Assembly: GCA_028283625.1 (NCBI GenBank)
Contig: JAPWKG010000026.1
Coordinates: 124,001-188,000, forward strand
Origin: Acidobacteriaceae bacterium
GTDB lineage: Bacteria; Acidobacteriota; Terriglobia; Terriglobales; Acidobacteriaceae
Length of the DNA stretch: 64,000 nucleotides
Direction: 5' to 3'
Shown here: positions 12,360 to 30,338 of the stretch, in pieces
Numbering within the stretch: position 1 is the first letter of the stretch
Layout of the letters: the number at the start of each line of letters is the position of its first letter
Notes under the pieces: generated by a model
The model's input: the letters and a program-made list of their open reading frames with translations, nothing else
Database searches by the model: none
What the model was told of the DNA's origin: nothing
Program-made: the position numbers and the translations under genes

Positions 12360-12487
12360 AGTTGACTTTGGAAAGGAAAGAAGAATAATATCGGTCCCAA
12401 ACCAACTAGATGAATCAATTCGGAAGATAACGAAACTTTTGATGGCAACCAGATAAGCGCTGTCGAACTTGAGAGTGGATCCGGAGG

Positions 12488-14431
12488 ATGAAAGAAGTGG
12501 GACGCAGAACGTCAGGAATGTTCTTCGGAAGCGTTTTCTTGGCTTTCGTGATCGGCTGTGTTGCGGTCAGCGGTATCGCGTGCGGTCAGGCTCCGGAGCC
12601 TCAGGGGCGTCAGTACTCTTCTCCTTCGGAGGAGGTGCAGACACCCAGGACCGGATCTGCAACCGCTGGTGTTTTCGCTCCTGTTCTGGATTCGGAAAAG
12701 CGGCCGATTACTGCGGGTGGATTCGTCAAAACCGGCCCTGTCCTTTTTATGGATGAATCCGAGCGCTCCGGGCTCACGAAGTGGCGTCATCAGATGGGCA
12801 CGCTGGAGAAGCGATACATCCTCGAGACGAACGGTTCGGGTGTCTGTCTTATCGACTACGACCATGACGGTTGGCTGGACATCTTCCTTGTAAACGGCTC
12901 TACTTTCGATGCACTGGCCGGCAAAGCCCCTGCTCCTCATGCCGCACTCTTCCATAACAACCACGATGGCACGTTCACCAATGTTGCCAAGGTTGCTGGA
13001 GTGGAGAATGATCGCTGGGGCTTCGGTTGTGCCGTAGGCGATTACGACAACGACGGCTGGCCCGACCTTTATGTGACCAACTTCGGCAAGAACCGCCTTT
13101 ACAAAAACAAGCACGACGGCACGTTTGAAGATGTGGCCGAGAAGGCAGGCGTTGTTCTCGGGAACTGGAGCACGGGAGCAAGTTTTGGGGATTACGACGG
13201 CGATGGAAGGCTGGATCTGTTTGTCCCTGGCTACATTCACTGGAATGAATCGAATCCCGAGTCGTTAGGCAAAGGCGTTGCCGATAACGGGTACTGTCAG
13301 TTCCGCGGTGTCCATGTGAATTGCGGACCGCGTGGGTTGCCCGGGGAGCCGGACCATCTCTTCCATAACAACGGAGATGGCACGTTCACGGATGTGAGCG
13401 AAAAGGCCGGTGTCTCTGACAAGGTGCATAACTACGGTTTCTCTTCCACCTTTGTGGATGTCAATAACGATGGCAAGGTGGATCTGGTCGTCGCGGATGA
13501 TTCGACTCCCAGCTATCTCTATATCAACAAAGGCGACGGCACCTTTGAGGATGCAAGCTTCTACTCGGGGTTTGCGCTGAATCAGGACGCGCGTGAGACC
13601 GCCAACATGGGCTTGGCTGTTGGGGATTACAGGAACAATGGCCTGGTTGATCTCTATACCGGGACGTTCTCTGATGATTACAAGCCCCTCTTCCAAAACA
13701 TGGGAGACGCCAATTTCACGGAAATTAGCCCTCAGATGGGAATCGCAGATGTGACCTATCCGTTCCTGACCTGGGCTACTGAGTTTATTGATTACGACAA
13801 CGACGGCTGGAAGGACCTGTTCCTGGCGAATGGTCACGTTTTTCCTGAGGTCGATCAGCATAACTGGGGTACATCGTATGCGGAGCGTCCCCTGGTGTTT
13901 CATAACGTCGATAAGGGGCAGAAGTACGAGTTGATGCCTGCTGTCGAAGGAACCGGCCTTGCGGACGTGATTCCTGCACGCGGAGCCGCTTTCGGCGATC
14001 TCTTCAACGATGGCCGCATTCAGGTGGTAATCAATTGCATGGACCACACACCTGCCCTGCTTCGTAATGTTGCGATAGAGACCAACCATTGGGTCGAACT
14101 TGCGCTGATCGGTGGCGCAAAAGGTCCGCGCGACGCGGTCGGCACTGCGGTCTATGTTTCCGCAAACGGCATGCGCCAACGCGCCGATGTCATGAGCGGC
14201 GGAAGCTACGAGTCCAATAACGATATGCGCCTTCACTTCGGCTTAGGTGAGGCTACAACGGTGACCGATGTCGAAATTCATTGGAGCTCCGGCCAGGTTG
14301 AGCATGTAAAGCTGCCTTCCATAGACCGCATCTTTGCGATCGAGCAGGGTAAGGGCATCGTGCCGAGTGTCTATGATGCAATCGCGCGCGATCAGGTAAA
14401 GAAGAACGCAGAGACAGCAAAGACAAAGTAG
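12488..14431 (+). CDS. CRTAC1-family secreted protein (FG-GAP/VCBS repeats, ASPIC/UnbV)
   Basis: This protein of up to 647 residues has an N-terminal signal (about 10-30). A seven-bladed propeller-like series of calcium-binding repeats follows, with D-x-D-x-D/N-G motifs such as DYDHDGWLD, DYDNDGWPD, DYDGDGRLD, DVNNDGKVD and DYDNDGWKD. The C-terminal ASPIC/UnbV domain contains VEIHWSSGQ near 595-605. ATG 12488 directly abuts GGAGG with no spacer. In-frame GTG 12497, 9 nt from GGAGG, is the better-spaced start, so the signal may begin MGRRTSGMFF. It heads a plus-strand series with a pentahaem TPR cytochrome and a CuA-type cupredoxin. The role of bacterial CRTAC1 proteins is unknown; extracellular adhesion or redox scaffolding is speculation. 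Confidence 0.85.
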   Translation: MKEVGRRTSGMFFGSVFLAFVIGCVAVSGIACGQAPEPQGRQYSSPSEEVQTPRTGSATAGVFAPVLDSEKRPITAGGFVKTGPVLFMDESERSGLTKWRHQMGTLEKRYILETNGSGVCLIDYDHDGWLDIFLVNGSTFDALAGKAPAPHAALFHNNHDGTFTNVAKVAGVENDRWGFGCAVGDYDNDGWPDLYVTNFGKNRLYKNKHDGTFEDVAEKAGVVLGNWSTGASFGDYDGDGRLDLFVPGYIHWNESNPESLGKGVADNGYCQFRGVHVNCGPRGLPGEPDHLFHNNGDGTFTDVSEKAGVSDKVHNYGFSSTFVDVNNDGKVDLVVADDSTPSYLYINKGDGTFEDASFYSGFALNQDARETANMGLAVGDYRNNGLVDLYTGTFSDDYKPLFQNMGDANFTEISPQMGIADVTYPFLTWATEFIDYDNDGWKDLFLANGHVFPEVDQHNWGTSYAERPLVFHNVDKGQKYELMPAVEGTGLADVIPARGAAFGDLFNDGRIQVVINCMDHTPALLRNVAIETNHWVELALIGGAKGPRDAVGTAVYVSANGMRQRADVMSGGSYESNNDMRLHFGLGEATTVTDVEIHWSSGQVEHVKLPSIDRIFAIEQGKGIVPSVYDAIARDQVKKNAETAKTK

Positions 14432-14475
14432 GTTCAAGGTCGGGCCGCATAGGAGTGCGCCCTGCGAGAGGTTCC

Positions 14476-16749
14476 GTGTATACGAGATATCTAAAATCGC
14501 TTGCCTCGCTTGTGGCCCTGACCGCGGTCCTTTATGGCGCATTGAATACTCCGGCCTTATTCGCTGAGCTTAAAAAACAAAAGGCCGGAGCAGGAGAAGC
14601 CGCGGCTGCGACGACAGATGCTGCGGAAGTGCATCGCGTCGTCGCGGCTTCTTCTGAAGATATCGCCGCAACGTATAACTATCGTTTCGGTAAGGACCAT
14701 CCCTTTACGCCGGGCAACGCAGAGTTTCAGGGAACCGGTTTTATGAAGCCGGACGATTTTCCCGATGCGCAGTACTGCGGTCATTGCCATCAGCAGGCGT
14801 ATCACGAGTGGCGCCAGGCGCTGCACTCGAACTCGTTCCGCACTCCCTTTTACCGCACCAGCGTAAACTTGCTGATTCATTCGAAGGGCATCGAGTTCTC
14901 GCGTCATTGCGAAAGCTGCCATAACCCCGTGGCGTTGTTGTCCGGCGGCATCACGCAGGAGTCGCACATCGATCGTCGCTTTGACCGCGAGGGTGTGACG
15001 TGCACCGTGTGTCACTCCATTCAGCAGCTGCGCTCCACCAGCGGCAACGGCGGATACGTTATGGGGCTTCCTTCGGTGATGCTGGATGAAAAGGGCAATC
15101 GGATTCCTGGCAAGGTTCCATACGAGCAGATCATGCAGCATACGGATCGTCACGTACGCGCCGTCATGAAGGATTTCTATCGCACACCCCAGTTCTGCGC
15201 TGCCTGTCACAAGGCGAATTTGCCGGAGCATTTGAATGACTTCAAGTTCGTGAGCGCATTCACTGCGTATGACGAGTGGCAAAACTCAAAGTTCTCGCAG
15301 CAAAATCCTCTGACCTTCTATACGAGCGACTTCAAAACATGCCAAAGCTGCCACATGGCTCGTGGCAAGGCCACGCTACCGGATTACGGCGCAAAACAGG
15401 GCATGTTTGCTTCGCACAGCTGGGCGGCAGGCAACACCGCGGTTCCTTATTACATGAAGCTCGATGAGCAGATGGACAAGACGGTCAAGTTCCTGCAGAG
15501 CGGGGATTATCTGAACGTTGATATCTTCGCTCTGAAAAAGGCAAGCAGCGATAAGTTGATTGCACCGCTGGGTTCCGTGCCCTTCCATATCGAGAGCAAT
15601 GAGGTTCTCGATGCGTACGTTGTAATTCAGAACAAGAACATCGGTCATTCCCTGATTCCGGAAGTGCGCGATCTTTATCAGGCCTGGGTTGAGTTCACCG
15701 TAAAGGACGCTACAGGCAAAGAGGTCTACCACAGTGGTTTTCTAAAGCCGGATGGTGCGCTGGATGAAGAAGCGCATAGCTTTACGAATCGTCCTGTCGA
15801 CGCCTCGAGCGAATTTGTCGACAACCATAAGGTCTGGACGATTCATACCGTAGCCTTTGATAACACTGTGCCTGCAGGGCGTTCCACGCTGGTGCGCTAT
15901 CGCTTTCGCGTCCCCGACGCGATGCACGGCGCTTTTACGATTACGGCAAAGGTGAACTACCAGCACTTCCGTCAGTCGTATCTGAATAATGTCTTCGGGA
16001 AAAAACATCCGAACTATCCGGTGGTGGAGCTTGCATCGCGTCAGGTTGCAATCAACGTCGGGGACAATGCGCCTGTCCCTGCGCAACCGGGGCAGAACGA
16101 AGACTGGATGCGTTGGAACAACTTGGGAATCGCCTATCTTGACCAGTTGCAGTATGCGAACTCGGTGGATGCTTTTGAGCAGGTTGTTCATCTCCGCCCG
16201 GAGTATGCCGATGCCTATACGAACATCGCTATAGCTGAGATCCAGTGGGAAAAATATGGCTCTGCGGCGATGAATGTTGACAAGGCGCTTGCTCTGAGCC
16301 CCCGGAATGCACGCGCTCTTTATTACAAGGCTCAGGTCGATCGGCGCGCTGGACATCTCGACGCAGAGATGCAGGATCTTCTGGAAGTCGTAAAGCAGTA
16401 TCCCAAATCGCGTGATGCTCGACGTGACCTTGGCTCCGCGTATTTCCGGCATGGAGATGATAAGGACTCAACGATCCAGTTCGAGGCGTTGCAGGATATT
16501 GATCCGGACGATCTGGTGGCGCATTACAACCTTTCGATCCTCTATCACCGAGCAGGCAAAACGCAGGATGCAGAAAAACAGCTGGCACTTTTCAAGACGG
16601 AGAAGATCAACTCCGAGGCCAGAGCAAACGGTAACGAGTTTCTAAGGAAGCATCCTGAAAACTCGAGAGAAAGTGTGCCATGGCATGTGCATACGAACTT
16701 GCCCGAAACGCTTGGCCCGGTTGCTCAGGCGCAAACGGGGGGGCGATGA
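14476..16749 (+). CDS. Pentahaem cytochrome c fused to TPR repeats
   Basis: This 757-residue protein starts at GTG 14476, preceded by GAGAGG; GTG 14455 would add seven residues. An N-terminal hydrophobic segment (about 5-25) is a signal or anchor. Five CxxCH haem sites begin at C101, C145, C176, C241 and C289. The layout resembles cytochrome c554-type multihaem domains (CGHCHQQAYHEWRQALHSNS). A beta-rich middle region (about 345-520) is followed by several tetratricopeptide repeats to about 730 (e.g. WNNLGIAYLDQLQYANSVDAF). It would act in the periplasm or at the outer face in electron transfer, with the TPRs binding partners. Its stop overlaps the start of the next gene, so the two are coupled. 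The partner of the electrons is unknown. Confidence 0.85.
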   Translation: MYTRYLKSLASLVALTAVLYGALNTPALFAELKKQKAGAGEAAAATTDAAEVHRVVAASSEDIAATYNYRFGKDHPFTPGNAEFQGTGFMKPDDFPDAQYCGHCHQQAYHEWRQALHSNSFRTPFYRTSVNLLIHSKGIEFSRHCESCHNPVALLSGGITQESHIDRRFDREGVTCTVCHSIQQLRSTSGNGGYVMGLPSVMLDEKGNRIPGKVPYEQIMQHTDRHVRAVMKDFYRTPQFCAACHKANLPEHLNDFKFVSAFTAYDEWQNSKFSQQNPLTFYTSDFKTCQSCHMARGKATLPDYGAKQGMFASHSWAAGNTAVPYYMKLDEQMDKTVKFLQSGDYLNVDIFALKKASSDKLIAPLGSVPFHIESNEVLDAYVVIQNKNIGHSLIPEVRDLYQAWVEFTVKDATGKEVYHSGFLKPDGALDEEAHSFTNRPVDASSEFVDNHKVWTIHTVAFDNTVPAGRSTLVRYRFRVPDAMHGAFTITAKVNYQHFRQSYLNNVFGKKHPNYPVVELASRQVAINVGDNAPVPAQPGQNEDWMRWNNLGIAYLDQLQYANSVDAFEQVVHLRPEYADAYTNIAIAEIQWEKYGSAAMNVDKALALSPRNARALYYKAQVDRRAGHLDAEMQDLLEVVKQYPKSRDARRDLGSAYFRHGDDKDSTIQFEALQDIDPDDLVAHYNLSILYHRAGKTQDAEKQLALFKTEKINSEARANGNEFLRKHPENSRESVPWHVHTNLPETLGPVAQAQTGGR

Positions 16750-17228
16750 TGCGCTTGCTTGTGGCAGCATTCGGATTCCTGGTAGGCGTGTTGTTGCCAA
16801 CGGCAGCGCATGCGCAACAAGCCATGCCTTCATGCCCTTACATCAACACGGAGACAACGTCGGGAGCTTTGGGGCTGCCTGCAACGCTTGCTCTTCGAGA
16901 GCAAAGTGAAGCAGGAGACCTTTGCAACTTCACCGCAGGCCGCGGCAAAGCAGAACGTCGCTTATATGTTGTGGTGAGGCCTATGCAGGAGCTTGAGGCT
17001 GACTATAAAAAGGCCCGTTCCCATTGTGCGGGAGAGGTCACCCCTGTCAACGCATTGGGGAATGATGCATGGAGCTGCACGCCGCGCGGTGTCTCTGCCG
17101 CGGGAGCGATTTTTGGACGGGTACGCGACACTTTCTTTTGGGTACAGATGAGCGGCATTGCCGAGAGCGCCGTTTTGAGCGATAAGCTATCGCTTGCAGC
17201 CGAGCAGGTTGCGAATAATCTTTACTGA
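16746..17228 (+). CDS. Small secreted protein of unknown function
   Basis: This 160-residue protein begins at tandem ATGs (16746 and 16749) that overlap the cytochrome gene stop. A clear Sec signal ends near AAHAQQA. The mature part of about 138 residues has four cysteines (near PSCPY, DLCNF, SHCAG and WSCTP) that could form two disulfides, and no recognised domain. In-frame codons upstream to 16680 lie inside the cytochrome gene and give a worse signal. Translational coupling to the pentahaem cytochrome suggests a shared periplasmic role, but nothing in the sequence states which. Confidence 0.7.
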   Translation: MMRLLVAAFGFLVGVLLPTAAHAQQAMPSCPYINTETTSGALGLPATLALREQSEAGDLCNFTAGRGKAERRLYVVVRPMQELEADYKKARSHCAGEVTPVNALGNDAWSCTPRGVSAAGAIFGRVRDTFFWVQMSGIAESAVLSDKLSLAAEQVANNLY

Positions 17229-17269
17229 GAGCAAGGCCCGTAGAGCTTTGTCGACCGTTGGGGGAGCGG

Positions 17270-17632
17270 GTGAGGAAGAGTTTGTTGCAGTGGTTTGTTC
17301 TTCTGGCTCTCATAGTCCTTGTGGCCGCCGGGATGGCAGAGGCGCAGAAGCCCAAACCGGAAACGGTTATCACGGTTCACGCAAAGAAGTACGCTTTCGT
17401 GCCGGGTCAGATCACGATTCATGTCGGGCAGCCGGTTCGCTTGTTCTTTGTCTCCGAGGATGTACCGCACGCTATCGCCGTCGACGAGCTTGCGATCGAT
17501 CTGCCCATCACAAAGAAGCCGTCGTCAATTTTGATCACCCCACAGAAGGTCGCAGAGCTCACCGGTATGTGCTCCCGTTATTGCGGCGCAGGTCACGATG
17601 AGATGCGACTTACGATTCACGTGGTTCCGTAA
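17270..17632 (+). CDS. Stand-alone CuA-type cupredoxin (cytochrome oxidase subunit II-like)
   Basis: This 120-residue secreted protein has a hydrophobic signal or anchor at about 5-22 and one cupredoxin domain. It carries a complete binuclear CuA ligand set as in oxidase subunit II: H67, then C101-x3-C105-x3-H109-x2-M112 (CSRYCGAGHDEM). It lacks the two-helix membrane hairpin of real subunit II and no subunit I is nearby, so it is probably a free electron carrier. It follows the pentahaem cytochrome and small secreted protein on the same strand after 41 bp. GTG 17270 is preceded by GGGGAG but the spacing is short; TTG 17258 or TTG 17279 are alternatives. It is convergent, 15 bp apart, with the next gene. 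Confidence 0.82.
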   Translation: MRKSLLQWFVLLALIVLVAAGMAEAQKPKPETVITVHAKKYAFVPGQITIHVGQPVRLFFVSEDVPHAIAVDELAIDLPITKKPSSILITPQKVAELTGMCSRYCGAGHDEMRLTIHVVP

Positions 17633-17647
17633 GCCATCCTACCGACC

Positions 17648-18115
17648 TTAGCTGGGGTGCCACGGCAGTGGTTTGCTTGAGGCTACAGGAGCCCAGGCAT
17701 CGTTGAGCGAGCGAAAGACCACGCTGAGGTGTTTGGAATGAGCCAGCAGCGTCTCATCGAACTCCACGCGATCGGTGCCGGGGGACGGATGAGACAAGGT
17801 GATATGAGCTGGCGCGGAGACCCATTTCCAGTCATCGCCGCTTCCCTCGTATTCGAGCACATCGACGTTGCCATCGCCTGGAACCTGCACCATGAGTGTC
17901 GGCGCGAACTCTTCTTCGATGCCCCGATAGGCGGCCTGCCCCTTTGTGTGTAGATCAATGAAAATCTGGGTTCTTTTCCCCTTCATCTCTGTCCATTGCA
18001 GGGAAACCCGTGGAGCCGGTGTAGTTGCTGTCGGAGTGCTGCTCTGGGCCACTGAAGCGTGATCGCCGAGCGAACAGATGCAGGCGAGGAGAGCGTATGG
18101 CAGAAATGCTTTCAT
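17648..18115 (-). CDS. Secreted protein of unknown function
   Basis: This 155-residue protein starts at ATG 18115, preceded by GAGG with 6-nt spacing; in-frame codons up to 18214 lie outside the signal. The Sec signal ends near ASVAQ. The mature region is beta-rich (LQWTEMKGKRTQIFIDLHTKG, VQVPGDGNVDVLEYEGSG) and proline-rich near the cleavage site. I do not recognise a family. It is transcribed away from the GH31 gene, with a 316-bp divergent intergenic region. Confidence 0.6.
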   Translation of the reverse strand: MKAFLPYALLACICSLGDHASVAQSSTPTATTPAPRVSLQWTEMKGKRTQIFIDLHTKGQAAYRGIEEEFAPTLMVQVPGDGNVDVLEYEGSGDDWKWVSAPAHITLSHPSPGTDRVEFDETLLAHSKHLSVVFRSLNDAWAPVASSKPLPWHPS

Positions 18116-18290
18116 AGGGGACCTCATGTATTGCGGGTAATGTTTTGTTTCGTAATGGATCTTGTGGGTTGTGGGCGTTGCTCTGTCTTCAAGGGAAACG
18201 AGGCTGCTCAGCATCTCCAGATGTAGTGCGTGTCGGTATATAACTTGGTTTTTCTAGGGAAATTGCATCTCTTTTTCTCGGAGAACGCAT

Positions 18291-20463: not shown

Positions 20464-20505
20464 TTTCATTTTTCGCTTGACTCGGGTTCCGATTGTTTCT
20501 AGTAT
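20464..20505 (+). promoter_or_regulatory. Promoter of the TonB-receptor gene with overlapping TTTCATTT element
   Basis: TTGACT at 20477-20482, 17 bp, then TAGTAT at 20500-20505 is a strong sigma70-like promoter. TTTCATTTTTCGCTTG at 20464-20479 overlaps the -35 box and matches the candidate operator core. A further TTTTCGTTG lies near 20552-20560 in the leader. Repression by the DeoR-family regulator is inferred. Confidence 0.55.
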
Positions 20506-20606
20506 CGGCTCAGAATTCACTAACAAACAACATTTGTAATCGATTTACTTCTTTTCGTTGCACTTCTATCCAGATGTGGCTGCATGTCAGCGGAGGTCGA
20601 AACAGA

Positions 20607-23600
20607 ATGCGTAAGAAGTTATATTTTTGTATGCTCGTCATACTCTTATGCGCGCTTGGAACGCATAGAGTTCACGCGCAGGCGTTTGCGCGGCTCGATG
20701 GTATCGTAGCGGATCCAGGGCAGGCGGCCGTGCCCGGGGCAAAGATTACGATTCGAAATGCGGATACTGGCGTTATTACAACCCAAATATCCGACTCGTC
20801 GGGGCAATATGTCTTTCCTTCTGTGCTCCCCGGCACCTACAAGCTGACGGTGCAGATGGCAGGTTTCAAGACCTGGGTTCGCAGCGTGGTTGTTCACGCC
20901 AACGACCATGTGACGGCCAACGTCCCCATGCTGCTGGGCGATGTTTCCACTACGGTTACGGTTACGGCTTCAACCGATCAACTGGATTCAGGGCAGCGCT
21001 CTGAGACGCTGACGAGTGAGCAGATCAAGAACCTGGCAACTCTTGGGCGCAACGCAGAAGAGCTGGTTCCTCTGCTTCCCGGTGTTGTTCAGAACGGTAG
21101 CTCCTCTTATAACTCGAGCTTTGGTGGCGGTACGACGAGCTCGGAGCAGGGTGTGGACGGCTTCAATATCAACGGCAACCGTTCTGACTCCAACACCTTC
21201 AAGCTGGACGGCGGCAACATGGACGATCTGACCGGAAACAATGGATCGAACATTTATCCGAACTCCGAGTTCATCTCCGAGATCACGGTGGAGACGAGCA
21301 ACTTTACAGCCGATCAGGGCGGCTCGCCGGTACTGATTACGGCGATTACCAAGTCGGGCACCAAGGATTTTCATGGTGAGGGCTATTACATCGGACGCAA
21401 CGCCATCTTTGACGGCAACGACTGGAGTAATAACTACGCCGGCATGGCTCGTCCTGATAACAGGTTCAACTACAGCGGATTTGCGCTAAGCGGACCGATC
21501 ATTCTCCCGGGTGTGAAGTACAACCGCGGACCGGAAAAGAAGCTCTTCTTCTTCTTCGGTACGGAGTTCAGCCGTCAGAATCCTGACCCCGGTACCGTTC
21601 TGTCGAACGTTCCGACGCAGGCAATGCTGGGCGGAGATTTTAGCCAGATCGTCTTCAGCACTACGTGCGAAAACGCGCGTGCCGCGGGCAATGCCGGCGC
21701 AACGTTCTATCTGCAGCATCCTTGTCAAATCAATGATCCGCTGACGGGGAATACGTTGGATAAGCAAAATGGCCGGCTCACCGGCTCCACAGGAAGCGGC
21801 ACGGGTCTGCTGAAGTCGCTCATGGGACCTGGCCTGGCTGGTCCGAACTATACGGACCCCACCGGTCAGTGGAACTACGCTGCCTCCCCGGCTCATCCGG
21901 TAAATATCAATCAATACGTTGGGCGTTTTGATTGGGATCCTTCCGATAAAGCTCGTTTTTATGTGCGCGTCGCGCGGCAGGATGAAACCGACGTAAAACC
22001 CTGGGGCGAGTACGTCAGTGCTGGAAGTAACTGGACCTCGAATGTACCAGAGCCATCGCCGACCATTTCGAAGTACAACTCGCGTTCACTGAACATCAAC
22101 ATGGTGAATGTGCTGAGCCCCTCGCTCACAAACGAGTTTTCTTTCAATACCAATGTCCTTCGCCAGCCGAATGCTTATCAGGATCCCAGCATTCTTAACC
22201 GCGACTCTTTGGGTGTCAACTTCAGCGGCATCTATAGCAACGGCTATCCGCAGGTTGCGCAGATCGTTCCAGCCTTTGCCGTGTGCGACTCGCTGAACAC
22301 GAGCGGTTGCGGTGCGAGTTATGCGCCTCCTGCAACCGGCCGTTGGGGAGAGAGCAACCTTGTTGGTCAGGGGAACTTTTACAAGCAGACGCAGTTTGAG
22401 TTTTCTGACAATCTCACAAAGGTGGTTGGTGCACACAATCTGAAGTTTGGTGGCCTTATCGGCCGTGCCCGCAACGATCAGAACGAAGCCTCGGAGCCGT
22501 TGGAAGGTTATCTGGTGCCGTCCACCTGGTCCGGTGTGACGACCGGCGATGAGTATGCCGATATTCTGACCGAGCACTTCTCAGAGTTCGAGCAGGCAAA
22601 TCATGACGTTCGTGGCAAGCTGCGTTCTTCTTCGTTCGAATGGTACGGGCAGGATAGCTGGAAGATTCGTAAGAATCTGACGCTTGAGTTTGGTGCCCGC
22701 TGGACATTGCAGGGACCCTGGTATGACGCTGCAGGTCTGGGCTCTACCTTTGATCCTTCCGCTTATGTGAAGACGTCCAACTCTACGGTGTACAACGGTG
22801 TGCGTACCGCAAGCTGCTCGAATCCCGGTCAGTCGGCCGTGCCGCTGTGCGGAACCATTGCGAAGACCATTCGCAAATACCCCATTCCTCTTACGCAACC
22901 GCGTGTCGGTTTCTCGTGGGATACGACCGGCCGTGGCCAGACGATTCTGCGTGGCGGGTTTGGCATCTACACGCAGCGCGACCCAACGAACGCCGGCTTC
23001 GGAGCGCTTCTCGGACCTCCGAACATGCAGGTGGCGACCATCTGCTGCAGTCTGGCCAATCTGGCGGCGTACGCGGCCGCAGTTCCAAGCGCGCAGGGGG
23101 CGTTCACGTATGGACAGAGCAACGCGGTTTACGATCCCCGCGACGGCGCAAGTCCTATGATCTACCAATTCAACCTGACGGTTTCTCAGGCGTTGTCTCA
23201 CCATCTCAATGCGGAAATGGCGTACGTCGGAAGTCAGAGCAGAAACATGCAGCTTGAGCAGAACATCGACAATGTTGCTCCTGGTGCGTTGTGGACTCCC
23301 GGAACCCATCTTGTTTCGACGGATGTGCAAGGGAATGAAGGGAACTATGCGCCGTACACGCCCTTCAAGCAGATCGTTCAGATTCAGCACACAGGAACGG
23401 CAAACTATAACGCGCTGCAGGCGACGCTCAAGCGTTCCTCCAGCAGAAACTTTGACTTCCTGGCGAGCTATACCTACTCGAAGGCGATGGGCGACAGCGA
23501 TCAGTTCCAAACGCTGCTTGCCAATCCGTTCAGCAACACGGGTTCTTATCATGTGCTGAGCTTTGATCGAACTCACCTCTTCTCACTGGGTGCGCAATGG

Positions 23601-24287
23601 TACGTTCCGAAACTGGCTCGTGGATCGCTGCTCAGTAACTCTGTCGCTCGCGGTGTACTGAACGGATGGATGTTCTCCGGCATTGCGAAGGCGCAAAGCG
23701 GCGGACCGATTGCCATCAGTGCCTATGTTTCCTGTGTTCAGGATGGCAAGCCCTGTGCCCAGAGCATCTGGAGTGCTCAGGACACCTGGTTCGGTACAAA
23801 CGCCTGGTCGAACGCATTCCTTCCAGGCTCAACGACCTCTCCACCGAACGGTATCTATCCGGTCTATACGTGTGATCCGAGACAGGCGCACGGTGGTATC
23901 GGATCGCGCTTCCTCAATACAGACTGCGTCAAGCTGCCTGCCTTTGGTCAGCAGGGCGCAATCAATCCTCCCTATATGAAGGGGCCGGGATCGTCCGATT
24001 ATGACATTGCCTTGCAGAAGTCCTTCCCACTGGGAGGAGACGGTGCGCGGCATCTGGACATCCGGATCTCCTCGTTCAACTTCCTCAACCGAGGGCAGTT
24101 GAATGCAATCAATACGGTTGCGGATTTCAACTACGTGTTACCCGCGGATGCTACCGATCCGTCGCAGGGGACAGCAACGTTGACCAACGGAAACTCTCCT
24201 TGTAACGGAAGCGTTGGTGGCCTTGGTTACTCCTGCGGTAAAACGGGCTCACGCCAAATGGAGGGAAGCGCGAAGATCTTCTTCTAG
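20607..24287 (+). CDS. Oar-like TonB-dependent receptor with carboxypeptidase-regulatory-like domain
   Basis: This 1,226-residue outer-membrane receptor starts at ATG 20607 with GGAGG 10 nt upstream. The signal ends near RVHAQ. A carboxypeptidase regulatory-like (CarboxypepD_reg) domain spans about 23-115 (GIVADPGQAAVPGAKITIRN). A plug domain (SEQIKNLATLGRNAEELVPLLPGVV) follows, then a long beta-barrel ending in the terminal aromatic F (AKIFF) usual for outer-membrane proteins. Acidobacteria carry many such receptors, often next to glycan enzymes, where they act like SusC. There is no SusD-like lipoprotein here. It follows the GH31 gene but has its own promoter. A strong hairpin after it separates it from the TPR operon. 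Substrate inferred only from neighbours. Confidence 0.92.
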   Translation: MRKKLYFCMLVILLCALGTHRVHAQAFARLDGIVADPGQAAVPGAKITIRNADTGVITTQISDSSGQYVFPSVLPGTYKLTVQMAGFKTWVRSVVVHANDHVTANVPMLLGDVSTTVTVTASTDQLDSGQRSETLTSEQIKNLATLGRNAEELVPLLPGVVQNGSSSYNSSFGGGTTSSEQGVDGFNINGNRSDSNTFKLDGGNMDDLTGNNGSNIYPNSEFISEITVETSNFTADQGGSPVLITAITKSGTKDFHGEGYYIGRNAIFDGNDWSNNYAGMARPDNRFNYSGFALSGPIILPGVKYNRGPEKKLFFFFGTEFSRQNPDPGTVLSNVPTQAMLGGDFSQIVFSTTCENARAAGNAGATFYLQHPCQINDPLTGNTLDKQNGRLTGSTGSGTGLLKSLMGPGLAGPNYTDPTGQWNYAASPAHPVNINQYVGRFDWDPSDKARFYVRVARQDETDVKPWGEYVSAGSNWTSNVPEPSPTISKYNSRSLNINMVNVLSPSLTNEFSFNTNVLRQPNAYQDPSILNRDSLGVNFSGIYSNGYPQVAQIVPAFAVCDSLNTSGCGASYAPPATGRWGESNLVGQGNFYKQTQFEFSDNLTKVVGAHNLKFGGLIGRARNDQNEASEPLEGYLVPSTWSGVTTGDEYADILTEHFSEFEQANHDVRGKLRSSSFEWYGQDSWKIRKNLTLEFGARWTLQGPWYDAAGLGSTFDPSAYVKTSNSTVYNGVRTASCSNPGQSAVPLCGTIAKTIRKYPIPLTQPRVGFSWDTTGRGQTILRGGFGIYTQRDPTNAGFGALLGPPNMQVATICCSLANLAAYAAAVPSAQGAFTYGQSNAVYDPRDGASPMIYQFNLTVSQALSHHLNAEMAYVGSQSRNMQLEQNIDNVAPGALWTPGTHLVSTDVQGNEGNYAPYTPFKQIVQIQHTGTANYNALQATLKRSSSRNFDFLASYTYSKAMGDSDQFQTLLANPFSNTGSYHVLSFDRTHLFSLGAQWYVPKLARGSLLSNSVARGVLNGWMFSGIAKAQSGGPIAISAYVSCVQDGKPCAQSIWSAQDTWFGTNAWSNAFLPGSTTSPPNGIYPVYTCDPRQAHGGIGSRFLNTDCVKLPAFGQQGAINPPYMKGPGSSDYDIALQKSFPLGGDGARHLDIRISSFNFLNRGQLNAINTVADFNYVLPADATDPSQGTATLTNGNSPCNGSVGGLGYSCGKTGSRQMEGSAKIFF

Positions 24288-24415: not shown

Positions 24416-25552
24416 ATGCGTAGTCTAGGCTGCAGTGTTGCGCGCTGTTTGCGTGTTGCGTGTGTCGGAGGTCTCACCTTCGTGGTCGGCCTTCCCGTGT
24501 ATGCGCAGCTTCCAGCGGCTTCGAGCTTGAAGTCGGAAGCTCTCACTGCGCAGCAGGCAGGAAAGGATGAGGTTGCAACCTCTCTTTATTCGCAGGCGCT
24601 TACACAGGACCCCGCATGGCTTGAAGGCTGGTGGAGGTACGGAGGCCTGCTTTATCAGGCGCATGAGTTTCAGCAGGCATCCGTAGCCTTCGGGCACCTA
24701 GTACAGCTAGCCCCGCAAAACTCTCTGGGCTACGCCATGCTGGGAGTGACGGAGTACGAACTCCAGGACTGGAACAACGCTTCACTTCATCTGAACAAGG
24801 CGCTCACGCGTGGAGGCATGCCTGAAGCAATCGCGAATGGAGCGATGTTCGATTACGGCCTCACGCTGATGAAGCAGCGAAATCGAAACGGAGCACTGAT
24901 TGCCTTCCGTCTTCTGCAGCACAACGCACCAGCTTATCCGCATTTGACGGAGGCCTTCGGTGCTGCAGAGTTGAACATGCAACAACTGCCTGCCGCAGGA
25001 TCTACGGAGGACGCAGAGGCGCTACTGCTGGGCAATGCCGCGATCTCCGTTCTGGAGTTGAAGACCAAAGCTGCCGAGACATACTATCGTCAGGCTATCG
25101 AGCAATACCCCACGCTCCCGTTTGTTCATCTTTGCCTTGCGCTCTTTCTGGAAAATCTCGGGCGGGATGCTGAAGCAGAGCAGGAGCTGATCGCGGAAAC
25201 AAAGGTGAATCAAACGAGTGCTGACCCGTGGGTTTGGTTAGGCCGTATCGCGTTGGCAAAGAGGAACGCTGATGAGGCCATACCGTATGCGCAGGAGGCT
25301 GCAAAGAGAACTCCGAACGACGCTGTGGCTTATCTGATTCTCGGCAAGTCGTACATCTTGAAGCAGCAGTGGCCGCAGGCGCAGCAGTCTCTCCAGAAGG
25401 CGGAAAACCTCGCTCCTTCGAGCTATGAGGTCCACTACGCCCTGGCAACCGTTTATAGCGCGCTGAAGGATGAGAGCTCAGCGGTCGCCGAGCGTAAGTT
25501 GTTCGCGCAGAACTACACTGCATCGCATGCCGCAGAGAAAGATGGGCAGTGA
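24416..25552 (+). CDS. Secreted tetratricopeptide-repeat protein (first of three)
   Basis: This 378-residue protein has a Sec signal ending near PVYAQL and almost continuous TPR helices from about 38 to 365. Motifs such as LTQDPAWLEGWWRYGGLLY and FGHLVQLAPQNSLGYAMLGV recur closely in the third TPR gene (26683), so the two are paralogues. TPRs bind other proteins; partner unknown. GGAAA precedes the ATG. Its stop overlaps the next gene as GTGA, making a coupled operon with two more TPR proteins and a 7-haem cytochrome. No enzymatic domain is visible. Confidence 0.8.
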   Translation: MRSLGCSVARCLRVACVGGLTFVVGLPVYAQLPAASSLKSEALTAQQAGKDEVATSLYSQALTQDPAWLEGWWRYGGLLYQAHEFQQASVAFGHLVQLAPQNSLGYAMLGVTEYELQDWNNASLHLNKALTRGGMPEAIANGAMFDYGLTLMKQRNRNGALIAFRLLQHNAPAYPHLTEAFGAAELNMQQLPAAGSTEDAEALLLGNAAISVLELKTKAAETYYRQAIEQYPTLPFVHLCLALFLENLGRDAEAEQELIAETKVNQTSADPWVWLGRIALAKRNADEAIPYAQEAAKRTPNDAVAYLILGKSYILKQQWPQAQQSLQKAENLAPSSYEVHYALATVYSALKDESSAVAERKLFAQNYTASHAAEKDGQ

Positions 25553-26682
25553 GGATGACCCTCGGCCGTCTTCTCGCAATGCTCGCGTGTGGCGCGTGGA
25601 TGACTCTGGCTGCCGAAGCGCAGGATGCATGCGCTCGTGGTGATCAGGCGCTGGCAGCTGCGCAGTGGAGCCAGGCTAATGACGCCTACCAGATCTGCCT
25701 GCAGTCGAACCCCAGCTTTGCGGTGTACTCCAATAGGGGAGTTGCGCTTGCGCATATGGGGCGCATGGAAGACGCGATTGCGAGTTACGACAAAGCCTTA
25801 TCGATGGACCCGTCCAACAGCAAAATCGAGTTCAATCTTACAGTCGTTCTCATCCGCGAAGAAAAGTACGCTGCAGCGGTCGATCATCTTACTCATCTTG
25901 AGAGGACGGGAAACGATGTTCGTTACGACGAGCTTCTTGCTCTCGCCTATTACCATTTGCAGTCGTATTCGTTGGCCGCGCGTGTTGCCGAACGTGTTTA
26001 TGCAAAACATCCTGAGGATCCTGCGAACGAACTGATTCTCGGTTCCACCTATGAGCGCATGCATCTTTACGAGAAAGCCTTGCCTTTGATTACTGCGGCT
26101 CTTGCGAGCGCAGGTTCTGATGCGGGGCATCTGATCCTGGCGCAAACCCTGAACGGTCTGCATCGGTATACCGAAGCAGAGGCGGAGTTGCAGGCTCTTG
26201 CTGCGGTGGCTCCGGACTTTCCGCAACTGCATGAAGCCATGGGAGAGATGTATGTGGGAACAGAGCGTTCGCCTCAGGCCGAGATCGAGTTTGAGCAAGC
26301 GCTGAAAGAAGATCCCAACGACTTTGAAGCCAATTATTTTTTAGGACGCCTGAAGCGATTCGATGGCGATCTTCCTGAGGCGGAGCAGTACCTTGCGGTT
26401 GCGGATCGTCTGCATCCCGATTCCTCTGATGTGAAGTATGAGCGAGCAGAGATTGCTTTGAAGCAGCATCGGTTTGCTGACGCCGTTCCGCTGCTGGAGG
26501 CTGTGATTCAGGCGGACCCAGATCAGGCGCAGGCATACCTTATGTTGTCTGAGGCCTACCAGCGTACCGGGCGGCGTGCAGACGCTCAGCGTGAAGGCGA
26601 GCTCTATAACCTCAAACGTAAAGAGTCGCATGAGCAGAGAGCAGAGCAGCAAAGCAATACGAGTGAGCAGGAGAGGCCTTAG
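25549..26682 (+). CDS. Secreted tetratricopeptide-repeat protein (second of three)
   Basis: This protein of 375-377 residues starts at GTG 25549 (overlapping the previous stop) or ATG 25555. The signal ends near AAEAQDA. TPR units run from about 27 to 350 (e.g. VYSNRGVALAHMGRMEDAIASYDKAL, a canonical TPR). The C-terminal 25 residues are charged and glutamine-rich (EQRAEQQSNTSEQ). It is less similar to the flanking TPR proteins than they are to each other. The next gene begins directly after its stop codon. Predicted periplasmic scaffold; partner unknown. Confidence 0.78.
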   Translation: MRMTLGRLLAMLACGAWMTLAAEAQDACARGDQALAAAQWSQANDAYQICLQSNPSFAVYSNRGVALAHMGRMEDAIASYDKALSMDPSNSKIEFNLTVVLIREEKYAAAVDHLTHLERTGNDVRYDELLALAYYHLQSYSLAARVAERVYAKHPEDPANELILGSTYERMHLYEKALPLITAALASAGSDAGHLILAQTLNGLHRYTEAEAELQALAAVAPDFPQLHEAMGEMYVGTERSPQAEIEFEQALKEDPNDFEANYFLGRLKRFDGDLPEAEQYLAVADRLHPDSSDVKYERAEIALKQHRFADAVPLLEAVIQADPDQAQAYLMLSEAYQRTGRRADAQREGELYNLKRKESHEQRAEQQSNTSEQERP

Positions 26683-27903
26683 TTGATTTGTCATGGCAAA
26701 CGCCGTCGCGCGCTGTTGAGTTGCACGTTCATGGTGAGCGTGAGTGGTCTTATGCTCATGCCCTCTTCCGCAACGGAGGCAGCGGCATTGCAGGCCGCTG
26801 CGCCAACGTTATCTACCCAGCTTCTTGAGGAGCAGGCAGGTGCGGCACGAGAACGTGGAGATACGCAGGCCAGCTTGAAGCTCTATCAGCGCGCACTCGC
26901 ACGCGCACCCGGTTGGCAGGAGGGATGGTGGTACTGCGGCTCGCTCCAATACGATGCTGCAAGTTACACGGGAGCCGTAAGTTCGTTTGAGAAGTTAGTC
27001 GAGCTGAACGCCTCTCTTCCCGATGCTTGGGCCATGCTTGGGCTGAGCGAGTTTGAGGTGAAGGAGTACGAGCGCTCGTTGGAGGATCTGCAGAAGGCAG
27101 AGCACCTTGGGTTGGCCGAACCGCTCCGCAATATCGCGGACTACCATCGAGGGCTTCTGTTGAATCTGAGCGGAGACTCTGACGGTGCGCTCTTGGTTTT
27201 GTCCTCGCTTTATTTGAGAGGCGTTCACTCTGAAGACCTGCAGGTTGCTCTTGGGATAACACTTCTGCGGGTGCCTCTTCTTCCATCGCAGCTTGATCCT
27301 GCTCGTGATGCGCTTGTGCATGACGCAGGAAACCTCGCTTCGCTGATTGCAGAGAAGCGCTTTGAAGAAGCGAGTCCTGCCTTTCAGCAGGCACTTGTAA
27401 GCTACCCTCAGGCTAAGTTTCTGCATTATGCGTATGGAGCGATGCTGGCAGTCGAGGGAAAAGATAAAGAGGCGATCGCACAGTTTCAAGCTGAGACTGT
27501 GCTGAACCCTGAGAGCGCGTTGCCATATATCGAATGGGCGTTTCTGAACATGAAATCCAAAGAATACGCGGAAGCCATACGACTTGCGCGTAAAGGATGC
27601 GAGCTGAGCAGCGAGTCGTTTCTTGCGCACTACATCTTAGGGAACTCTTTGTTGCTCTCAGGGGACCCGGCCGCGGCCCGACCGGAGCTGGAAAAGTCCA
27701 AAGCGCTCGCTCCGGGCTCGCCTGATGTGCGTTATAGCCTGTCGCGCACGTACGCACGCTTAGGCCAACCCACGCTTGCTCGGGAGGAACAGGCGGAGTT
27801 CCTTTCACTACAGAGAAAGAACGCCGTCGATCGTTTGGAACTGCAGAAGCGTTATGCGGGAGCCGCAGCGATCACGGGTGTCCGTCCAACGACCGCACAG
27901 TAG
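26683..27903 (+). CDS. Secreted tetratricopeptide-repeat protein (third of three)
   Basis: This 406-residue protein begins at TTG 26683, immediately after the previous TAG. An AGGAGAGG inside the upstream gene with good spacing supports the TTG; ATG 26731 is the alternative. The signal region is hydrophobic to about SSATEAAA. TPRs run from about 45 to 385. The block LARAPGWQEGWWYCGSLQY / FEKLVELNASLPDAWAMLGL parallels the first TPR gene, indicating duplication within the operon. 27 bp separate it from the cytochrome gene. Confidence 0.78.
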   Translation: MICHGKRRRALLSCTFMVSVSGLMLMPSSATEAAALQAAAPTLSTQLLEEQAGAARERGDTQASLKLYQRALARAPGWQEGWWYCGSLQYDAASYTGAVSSFEKLVELNASLPDAWAMLGLSEFEVKEYERSLEDLQKAEHLGLAEPLRNIADYHRGLLLNLSGDSDGALLVLSSLYLRGVHSEDLQVALGITLLRVPLLPSQLDPARDALVHDAGNLASLIAEKRFEEASPAFQQALVSYPQAKFLHYAYGAMLAVEGKDKEAIAQFQAETVLNPESALPYIEWAFLNMKSKEYAEAIRLARKGCELSSESFLAHYILGNSLLLSGDPAAARPELEKSKALAPGSPDVRYSLSRTYARLGQPTLAREEQAEFLSLQRKNAVDRLELQKRYAGAAAITGVRPTTAQ

Positions 27904-27930
27904 TGCAAGATTGCTGGAGAGTATTTGCTT

Positions 27931-29106
27931 ATGATGGATGTCTCCGGCTGGAGCCGCCTCAGAGGGAAGATCAACGCACTTGCAGCCGTCGTGCTGAGTG
28001 TGCTGCTGATGACTGCCTGGCTTGCGCAGTCCACCTTTGTTCAGGCGATGCAGAAAAGTGAACAGACTTCATCTTCGTTGTCGCGTTATGAACAGGGAGC
28101 GACCTCGGGGAACGTGTATGTCGGTCAGGCAAAATGCATCACGTGCCACAAGGGAATGTCTTCTGCCGCTTCAACCCCTATGGGAGAGGCCGCAGCGGAA
28201 CCATTGCGCTCCGGAATGCCCGACTACTCCACAATGAGCTATCAAAGTGGTCAGTACACTGTGCGCATTGAGAAGAACGATGCGGGCATGAACATGAAGG
28301 TCAGCGACGGGAGTGCCAGCCTGAGCGTGCCGGTCCGCTGGATCTTTGGCAAAGGGTACGACGGTCAGACGTTTCTCCTGGAGAAAGATGGTCAGCTCTA
28401 CGAAAGTCGCTCCAGCTATTACGCGGCGCTCGGCCATCTGGATAAGACGATCGGGCACTCAAATGCTCCTCCGGCTTCTCTGATGGCGGCACTCGGAAGG
28501 GCTTTGCCGAAGGAGGAAGTGGAGCGATGCTTTAGCTGTCATACGAGTGAAAATCTCTTTGCGGGGCGCGTTGAGGTACAGCAAGCGCATCCGGGAGTCA
28601 CTTGTGAAAATTGCCACGGAGCCGGCAGCGAGCACGTCGCCCTTATGTCCGCGACGAGCAGGCAGACGCCGTTGACGGATGCGGAAATCTTTAATCCTGC
28701 GAGCTTGGCTCCTGCAGATTTGAACGACTTTTGTGGGTCCTGCCATCGCACAACGCGCGATGTGATGCGCTCAGGGGTACGAGATATCCGGAACGTGCGT
28801 TTTCAGCCTTATCGTCTGGAAAACAGCCGCTGTTACGACCCTTCTGACGAAAGGATTCAGTGCACCGCTTGTCATGATCCGCATCGCAAACTGGAGACCT
28901 CCTCCGCGGTGTACGACCAGAAGTGTCTTGCGTGCCATGCCAGCCAGAGTAGCGGTACCGTCAGTCAGAAGGCGCCCGCTTGCCCGCGTGCGACGAAGGA
29001 TTGTGCGTCCTGCCACATGCCAAAGCTGAACCTGCCGGGCGCCCATTTTGCCTTTACGGATCATTACATCCGTGTCGTGAAGCCGGGCGAGCCGTATCCA
29101 GACTAG
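27931..29106 (+). CDS. Seven-haem cytochrome c
   Basis: This 391-residue protein starts at ATG 27931, 9 nt after GGAGAG; TTG 27925 and ATG 27934 are close alternatives. A hydrophobic N-terminal segment (about 14-32) is a signal or anchor. Seven CxxCH motifs start at C69, C200, C225, C268, C311, C332 and C358. The first is isolated by a beta-rich stretch of about 130 residues and the other six form a compact C-terminal multihaem domain. It is the last gene of the TPR operon and is convergent with the NagX-like gene (26-bp gap). It would carry electrons in the periplasm. The acceptor is not evident, and no terminal reductase is nearby. Confidence 0.85.
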   Translation: MMDVSGWSRLRGKINALAAVVLSVLLMTAWLAQSTFVQAMQKSEQTSSSLSRYEQGATSGNVYVGQAKCITCHKGMSSAASTPMGEAAAEPLRSGMPDYSTMSYQSGQYTVRIEKNDAGMNMKVSDGSASLSVPVRWIFGKGYDGQTFLLEKDGQLYESRSSYYAALGHLDKTIGHSNAPPASLMAALGRALPKEEVERCFSCHTSENLFAGRVEVQQAHPGVTCENCHGAGSEHVALMSATSRQTPLTDAEIFNPASLAPADLNDFCGSCHRTTRDVMRSGVRDIRNVRFQPYRLENSRCYDPSDERIQCTACHDPHRKLETSSAVYDQKCLACHASQSSGTVSQKAPACPRATKDCASCHMPKLNLPGAHFAFTDHYIRVVKPGEPYPD

Positions 29107-29132: not shown

Positions 29133-30338
29133 TTATACGCGAAGAAAGATACGGTTCTCGTACATCCAGCGCAGCATGTAGAAGTAGATCAGCAAAACCA
29201 GGCAGCCGGAAATCAAAGGTTCAAGCGGTGGGCCCAGAAGCGTAAAGAGATGCGCGTTGAGATGCGTATGAAGCGAGCGCAGAATAAACTCCTCGCATAA
29301 GTGCGCCATCAGGTATGCCGCAAGAGAGTTCGCTCCAATCACCAGGAGTGGATAGGCGAACCGGTGGCTTTTGTTGGATTTCAGAAGCCATGAAAACGCA
29401 CTCAGCATCAGGAGGCAGACACCGCCGCTGAAAAGCGTCCACGCTGGCGTCCATATCCGTTTCACAATCGGGTTGATCCCGGTCAGATGGAGCAAAAGGC
29501 CGGCCGCTATAAGCCACGCGCCGGTTTGCGTGAGCTTGCGCAGCGGTACGGCGGCGGGGCTTGCAATCAACCAGCGCCCGGTAAGAACTCCAAGCAGCGT
29601 CGTTCCAAGCGTTGGAATGAAGTTGTAGGTAAGATAGCCGCCTTCGTTGAACTGAAAGCGAGTGGGACGTGGAAAGAGGTTGAGGAATCTTTGATCCAAC
29701 GCCAGGCCTAGATTTGCATTCTTGTTCCAGTGCGCTGCAAATCCATGCAGAAAGTATTGGCTCTGCCACGCAGGCGTAATCCCAACGCTCATATAGTTGA
29801 AGCTGGCCGAAGGGACTGGGTAGAGCGCCCACGCAAGCCAGTACAGGAGAAGGATGGAGGCGAATATGCTCCAGATCCATTTTGAGGAAAGCTGCGCGAT
29901 CAGGAAGGCAAAGCTATAGCCAAGACCGATTTGAGTCAGCGTGTCTTCGAAGGTGTAGTTGGTGCTTTGCGCGTGGAGCGAGCGCAGAAATACTCCCAGG
30001 GTGATCAGAATGACGCTGCGCCATAGGGTATGCGCGAACTGGTGCAGGAAGCTTTCCCCTTTACGCTGTCGGCTTCGTAGAGAGTAGCTAAGCGCAACGC
30101 CGACAAGGAACGTGAACGACGGCTGGATCGTGTCATGCAGGCTCATACCAACCCATTCAGCATGGCTTTGGTTGTATCCCAGAAAATACCAAAGGCGGCT
30201 GTGCGGAAAGCTCTGCGCAATCTGGCTAAGATGCATCACTTCCGCGAGCATGAGCAGCATCACGAAGCCGCGATACGCATCGACGGCAATGTTTCTATAA
30301 GGAGGGAGTGCCGAGGCGTGTGTTCCGTTCGAGCTCAA
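29133..30338 (-). CDS. NagX/HGSNAT-like membrane acyltransferase (DUF5009)
   Basis: This 401-residue polytopic membrane protein has about ten hydrophobic segments. The N-terminal VDAYRGFVMLLMLAEVMHL and SLHDTIQPSFTFLVGVALSYS are hallmarks of the heparan-alpha-glucosaminide acetyltransferase/NagX family. HGSNAT acetylates terminal glucosamine across a membrane. NagX homologues occur in bacterial amino-sugar utilisation loci, where function is proposed but unsettled. The TTG start has AGGA upstream. It lies 38 bp downstream of the PfkB kinase gene on the same strand, probably one operon. That context fits handling of an N-acetylated amino sugar. Confidence 0.82.
   Translation of the reverse strand: MSSNGTHASALPPYRNIAVDAYRGFVMLLMLAEVMHLSQIAQSFPHSRLWYFLGYNQSHAEWVGMSLHDTIQPSFTFLVGVALSYSLRSRQRKGESFLHQFAHTLWRSVILITLGVFLRSLHAQSTNYTFEDTLTQIGLGYSFAFLIAQLSSKWIWSIFASILLLYWLAWALYPVPSASFNYMSVGITPAWQSQYFLHGFAAHWNKNANLGLALDQRFLNLFPRPTRFQFNEGGYLTYNFIPTLGTTLLGVLTGRWLIASPAAVPLRKLTQTGAWLIAAGLLLHLTGINPIVKRIWTPAWTLFSGGVCLLMLSAFSWLLKSNKSHRFAYPLLVIGANSLAAYLMAHLCEEFILRSLHTHLNAHLFTLLGPPLEPLISGCLVLLIYFYMLRWMYENRIFLRV

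Follow-up and report, generated by a model that had tools for sequence, protein, structure and literature searches.

Gene content of the run

The DNA analysed here, referred to as the window, is a stretch of 64,000 nucleotides from an Acidobacteriaceae assembly, and its positions 12488 to 17632 carry four open reading frames (ORFs) in series, all on the plus strand and placed as in the initial annotation. The first gene (12488–14431, plus strand) encodes a CRTAC1 protein with an N-terminal signal, FG-GAP repeats bearing calcium-type Asp motifs, and an ASPIC/UnbV domain. It is followed on the same strand by a pentahaem c-type cytochrome with a beta domain and a C-terminal TPR domain (14455–16749; the likely true start, as read from the sequence, is GTG 14476), a secreted four-cysteine protein of 160 aa (16746–17228), and a free CuA cupredoxin with a signal peptide (17258–17632; GTG 17270 is the better start on the same kind of reading). 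ATG 16746 is the better start of the four-cysteine gene, which then overlaps the cytochrome stop by 4 bases. The next ORF (17648–18214) is located on the opposite strand and has no Pfam match, so we place the end of the run at the CuA gene. Upstream of the CRTAC1 gene, in the gap after the DUF4832 gene, lies a weak promoter-like site (TTGACT-16-AATAAT, 12362–12389, plus strand), no better than chance with four such sites observed in 7.7 kb and 3.6 expected. In the source assembly (3.0 Mb, 31 contigs, 84.8% complete), the cytochrome, UnbV_ASPIC, the four-cysteine protein (E 1e-10), and the free CuA each gave a single match, all in this run; the second match of the free CuA search was an oxidase subunit II at C31. 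UnbV_ASPIC matches number 10 to 19 per genome in five relatives.

The CRTAC1 protein scored over the Pfam cut-offs for both FG-GAP_3 (152.5 bits) and UnbV_ASPIC (62.9 bits). In an alignment restricted by a score and length threshold, all three Asp residues of four calcium-type motifs were invariant (82/82 rows). The possibility that CRTAC1 proteins are lipoproteins was rejected, with a lipobox-like motif in just 5 of 44 rows; this count does not include the window protein, which has a lipobox-like VIGC at residues 21–24 and may itself be a lipoprotein.

Five CXXCH motifs were present in all 61 listed cytochromes, the window protein among them. This protein exceeded the Pfam cut-offs for Cytochrome_C554 and several TPR models. 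The pentahaem and beta domains occupy residues 62–541 (14638–16077, plus strand), from which the profile matching Thermochromatium tepidum c552 was built, and the TPR region, delimited by Pfam TPR models and the structure model, covers about residues 550–740 (16102–16674, plus strand). A fold search with the AlphaFold model (pLDDT 89, pTM 0.86) ranked 5ze8, the pentahaem c552 of T. tepidum, first in the PDB at E 5.5e-12 (TM 0.66 by target and 0.35 by query, rmsd 8.1). The haem-domain profile also placed 5ze8 first (E 2.5e-6), in an alignment spanning the first three haems, with weaker matches to MccSep (0.0023) and MccA (0.027), which we take to be multihaem enzymes or enzyme-like proteins. 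Outside the haem motifs, six His residues (H124, H233, H321, H398, H441, and H458) were invariant in 57 of 57 rows, three of them located in the beta domain. The cut-off of 250 for ExtKL (NCBIfam NF040886) was missed by the window protein at 18.8 bits and by the best of four at 28.8, and that of the OmcA/MtrC decahaem family (209.3) was missed at 25.5 bits.

By fold and motif, the cytochrome belongs with the pentahaem class of T. tepidum c552 and Geobacter ExtKL, with a TPR domain added. Excerpts of PMC11976967 group T. tepidum c552, Geobacter ExtKL, GSU2801, and the sPHC and lPHC proteins of cable bacteria as the pentahaem cytochrome (PHC) family, and tie this class, more distantly, to an archaeal cytochrome nanowire (AvECN). 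The window protein resembles the PHC family in that a beta domain comes after five haem motifs, and the stretch at the first haem (C..CH....W..S.H) is common to both. What differs here is the C-terminal TPR domain, together with the CRTAC1 and four-cysteine partners and the gene for a small carrier.

All 30 aligned rows of the four-cysteine protein keep its four Cys residues, and the alignment contained no conserved His or Met suggestive of a redox centre, for which reason we take the protein to be an accessory. Its structure model (pLDDT 89) found no fold match at E 1e-3; the weak matches, considered for a resemblance to PknH-sensor or PsbP-like secreted domains, include TiME (the best, at 7.4e-3), the PknH sensor domain (5.1e-2), MTC28, and DcrB. 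The DUF2020 model remained under its Pfam cut-off.

Conservation of the gene set

At E 1e-3, the cytochrome query had matches, a good many of them distant, in 150 of the 200 genomes searched in the order, and at E 1e-20 the haem-domain profile had matches in 91 of the 297 searched in the phylum. Gene neighbourhoods were compared in 63 loci, namely the window, 60 loci (L021–L080) hand-picked from the matches of the cytochrome search in the order, mostly by score with about 20 from lower tiers, and two loci (L103 and L109) included on account of their CuA genes. We counted CRTAC1 as lying beside the cytochrome when it was on the same strand and started 1.0–2.7 kb upstream or 1.9–3.6 kb downstream of the cytochrome start. 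On this definition, the two genes adjoin in 54 of the 63 loci (43 with CRTAC1 upstream, 11 downstream), leaving nine without adjacency; in L059 an extra ORF separates them, and the CRTAC1 gene of L068 is fragmented. Of the 11 loci with CRTAC1 downstream, eight have a further TPR-type ORF, lacking haem motifs, ahead of the cytochrome. The association extends to distant loci, 20 of which were hand-picked from the phylum matches of the haem-domain profile, 18 of them outside the family: CRTAC1 accompanies the cytochrome in 15 of the 20 (in L210 it comes after a small cytochrome gene), those without an adjoining CRTAC1 being L196, L197, L208, L209, and L211.

The four-cysteine gene follows the cytochrome in 35 of 62 loci, the window being left out of this count. 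A genome-wide search found homologues at 50 places, spread over 46 of 200 genomes, and every one of these places (50/50) lies within 5.5 kb of a cytochrome gene; scoring was confined to the top 18 first-look candidates in each genome, and unlinked distant copies may therefore escape this search. The two proteins are also found fused. In L060 the four-cysteine domain forms the C-terminus of the cytochrome (residues 827–956 of 956), and in genome G129 (C14:2092-4797) matches to the cytochrome and to the four-cysteine protein share one open frame of 936 codons. For joint action of the two proteins, this fusion provides the strongest evidence.

That the genes are chance neighbours was ruled out by the conserved order, the single copies in the source assembly, and the fusion. 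The adjacency of CRTAC1 and cytochrome in the order and at more distant loci, the constant linkage of the four-cysteine gene, and its two fusions bear out the initial reading of the run as a dedicated extracytoplasmic electron-transfer unit. The lack of a conserved neighbourhood, named at the outset as one half of a refuting result, is not what these loci showed.

Partnership of CRTAC1 with multihaem proteins has precedent. In excerpts of PMC12758564, CRTAC1 genes adjoin hydrazine-synthase-like multihaem genes, and those clusters resemble the run in that a CRTAC1/FG-GAP gene flanks multihaem genes, some of which have cytochrome c554 domains. They differ from it in that the window cytochrome is a single pentahaem-TPR protein. 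A looser parallel is offered by the Planctomycete-specific cytochromes near glycan genes of Verrucomicrobia (PMC5615132), which are likewise function-unassigned cytochrome families of saccharide-degrading bacteria. Their domains are different, and UnbV, FG-GAP, and tetratricopeptide are absent from the main text of that source. We found no description of this gene set in the open-licence literature, which, given that scope, is weak evidence of absence.

The initial annotation had further set the run among secreted glycan enzymes. This setting is not supported, as the beta-helix and DUF4832 neighbours of the window recur in 0 of 60 loci and GH31 in 2 of 60 (L037 and L060). With the glycan neighbours not conserved, oxidative attack on polymers, one of the purposes then suggested, is left without support, and nothing was found in favour of the other, a redox-sensing surface complex. 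One of the recurring neighbour families, which were named by eye, is an outer-membrane barrel, present in 22 of 60 loci; an amylase-like neighbour was noticed, likewise by eye, in L072.

Other redox-like or CRTAC1 genes were observed in the same regions. Downstream of the cytochrome, on the opposite strand, five loci (L074, L076, L078, L079, and L080) carry two or three more CRTAC1 genes, and four of these extra sets start with a short TPR-type ORF. In the window, a second redox-like series (24416–29106) begins right after the barrel gene and consists of three TPR proteins and then a heptahaem cytochrome (27925–29106) with seven CXXCH motifs. The heptahaem gene has three matches among the fetched ORFs, in L023, L046, and L068, loci that contain CRTAC1 but were fetched for the pentahaem gene. 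After it, on the minus strand, is a 401-aa ORF (29133–30338) with no Pfam match at E 0.01.

Free CuA and monohaem cytochrome c genes

The last protein of the run matched Pfam COX2 at 24.1 bits (cut-off 22). In the 124-aa numbering, H71, C105, C109, H113, and M116 fit a full CuA ligand set, given the ligand roles usual for such sites. The ligand loop, CSRYCGAGHDEM (17570–17605, plus strand), has Arg where both oxidase subunits II of the genome have Gln. The protein thus shares its ligand set and domain family with subunit II of cytochrome c oxidase; it differs in having no neighbouring subunit I, in lacking the loop Glu/Gln, and in scoring under the CoxB equivalog cut-off (36 against 147.7 bits). 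The absence of subunit I, pointed out in the initial annotation, was confirmed across the assembly, whose two COX1 matches lie elsewhere, at C4:42992 and C31:36530, each with its own adjoining CuA subunit II.

Free CuA proteins are common in the order, being found in 107 of 200 genomes at E 1e-6. In 28 of these proteins the axial Met is present with one exception (27/28), and none (0/28) has the loop Glu/Gln; the loop Gln of the two oxidase subunits II is to be read with the fact that the pattern used to select them itself required Glu or Gln. In oxidases, the loop Glu/Gln faces subunit I. Its absence from the free proteins agrees with a CuA protein that makes no docking contact with subunit I. 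The exception to the axial Met is the cytochrome-linked CuA of L024 (L024:5372-5857), in which Ile replaces it. That the CuA is a left-over of an oxidase operon appears unlikely given the lack of a nearby subunit I, the loop residues of all 28 proteins, and the separate tree group described below.

A CuA gene is linked to the cytochrome in eight of the 63 loci (window, L021, L022, L024, L027, L043, L103, and L109; in L109 it lies 3.1 kb upstream), and in 6 of 61 once the two loci selected for their CuA are excluded. The CuA-type run also occurs in a cultured relative, Silvibacterium bohemicum (locus L105). The CuA, which had been listed as a standard member, is a lineage-specific member of the gene set and not part of its core.

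The eight linked CuAs lie on one side of a branch that separates them from 20 other free CuAs (support 94/87, 96% of 200 bootstrap trees). This tree was built without the two oxidase rows; in a first tree that included both, the linked group needed two changes, with one oxidase row, on a long branch, inside it. The cytochromes of the eight loci fall in one group of 12 rows (SH-aLRT 83), of which four are without CuA. Mapping CuA presence onto the cytochrome tree takes four changes, of which at least two are forced; they may reflect one gain followed by losses or several gains. This tree was built by a quick method and rooted at its midpoint, so that either carrier may have appeared first.

Elsewhere in the cytochrome phylogeny, a different small redox gene occupies the neighbouring place. 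Of the 18 rows in another clade, 13 show a monohaem cytochrome c gene immediately following the cytochrome, and the single one scanned, from L072, is Cytochrome_CBB3/Cytochrom_C in Pfam, of class-I type. The pair of cytochrome and directly downstream monohaem c is also present in L209 and L210, from another family. Neither carrier gene lies directly beside the cytochrome in 42 of the 63 loci. Free CuAs at other loci show a related association, with a monohaem cytochrome c gene at most 0.7 kb away in 14 of 20. These CuA/monohaem pairs are found among L083–L102 (for example L096, L097, L100, and L101), and by eye several of them lie amid exopolysaccharide genes, one neighbour being a polysaccharide-export protein in Pfam.

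The main new result of this analysis is that one small carrier has apparently been exchanged for another between clades. This exchange suggests a route from the pentahaem cytochrome through a small high-potential carrier to an oxidase encoded elsewhere.

Proposed electron transfer and its alternatives

Taking together the observed gene content and conserved order, the fusion of two members, the fold class of the cytochrome, and the two kinds of carrier gene alongside it, we lean towards an exported electron-transfer complex, comprising a scaffold, a pentahaem relay, an accessory, and a small carrier, with the oxidase elsewhere, as the somewhat more probable reading. The calcium-type beta-propeller of CRTAC1 and the TPR domain would provide the scaffold, in which the proteins presumably contact each other. 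The pentahaem and beta domains would act as the electron relay and perhaps as the catalytic unit, and the four-cysteine protein would be the fixed accessory of the cytochrome. Electrons from a donor, for which the four-gene run contains no enzyme, would enter a low-potential pentahaem chain and be handed to a small, soluble, high-potential carrier. A 2019 paper entered in the reference list of PMC11976967 describes T. tepidum c552 in its title as low-potential; with that potential carried over to the window cytochrome from a distant relative, flow from the pentahaem protein to CuA or cytochrome c would be downhill. The mobile carrier would be the free CuA cupredoxin in this clade and a monohaem cytochrome c in another, the two probably being equivalent, and it would deliver electrons to a haem-copper oxidase encoded elsewhere as the likely sink. 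In its widest form, the proposal is that the pentahaem-TPR cytochrome, CRTAC1, and four-cysteine subunit make up an exported oxidoreductase complex across the phylum, and that one lineage swapped a cytochrome c shuttle for a free CuA serving as a soluble mobile carrier outside any oxidase; this we offer tentatively, as a possibility on the doubtful side.

The strongest rival has the flow reversed, so that the pentahaem protein, having an open haem site, would act as a terminal reductase (with nitrite, hydroxylamine, sulfite, selenite, or the like as its substrate) and be fed by the CuA or monohaem carrier. The weak profile matches of its haem domain to MccSep and MccA point in this direction, as do the pentacoordinate, potentially catalytic haems that excerpts of PMC11976967 give for the pentahaem proteins of cable bacteria. 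We nevertheless judge a reductase unlikely, as no nitrogen or sulfur enzyme was seen by eye among the families recurring in the loci. The carriers themselves also argue against it, since electrons from CuA and class-I cytochromes c usually go to oxidases.

Electrons could instead be led outward, through a conduit or an extracellular cytochrome filament, with the TPR domain and CRTAC1 taking part in its assembly or in its display at the surface. The relation of the pentahaem class to ExtKL and AvECN drawn in the same excerpts of PMC11976967, the membership of ExtKL in a Geobacter conduit cluster (PMC6148476), and the recurrence of the outer-membrane barrel family are consistent with this idea. 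The barrel, however, is of TonB type, as at window positions 20493–24287, and not a known conduit porin, a filament would need room for the TPR domain, and haem-copper oxidase genes are present in the genome, all of which makes an outward path quite improbable. For the CuA protein alone, a role as copper donor or assembly factor for oxidases, and not as redox partner of the cytochrome, would suit a CuA domain that is free, secreted, and without subunit I in a genome with oxidases elsewhere. Against such a role, which we consider very unlikely, stand the grouping of the linked CuAs on their own, the like place held in another clade by monohaem cytochrome c, a redox carrier, and the cytochrome c genes that adjoin 14 of the 20 other free CuAs.

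Returning to the exported electron-transfer complex, its significance is twofold. To our knowledge, no role has been established for UnbV_ASPIC (CRTAC1) proteins in bacteria; the conserved set and its dedicated, sometimes fused accessory tie CRTAC1 to a multihaem cytochrome in a complex that can be tested. If monohaem cytochrome c and CuA are truly equivalent, these loci would offer an uncommon case in which evolution has itself tried one electron carrier in place of another.
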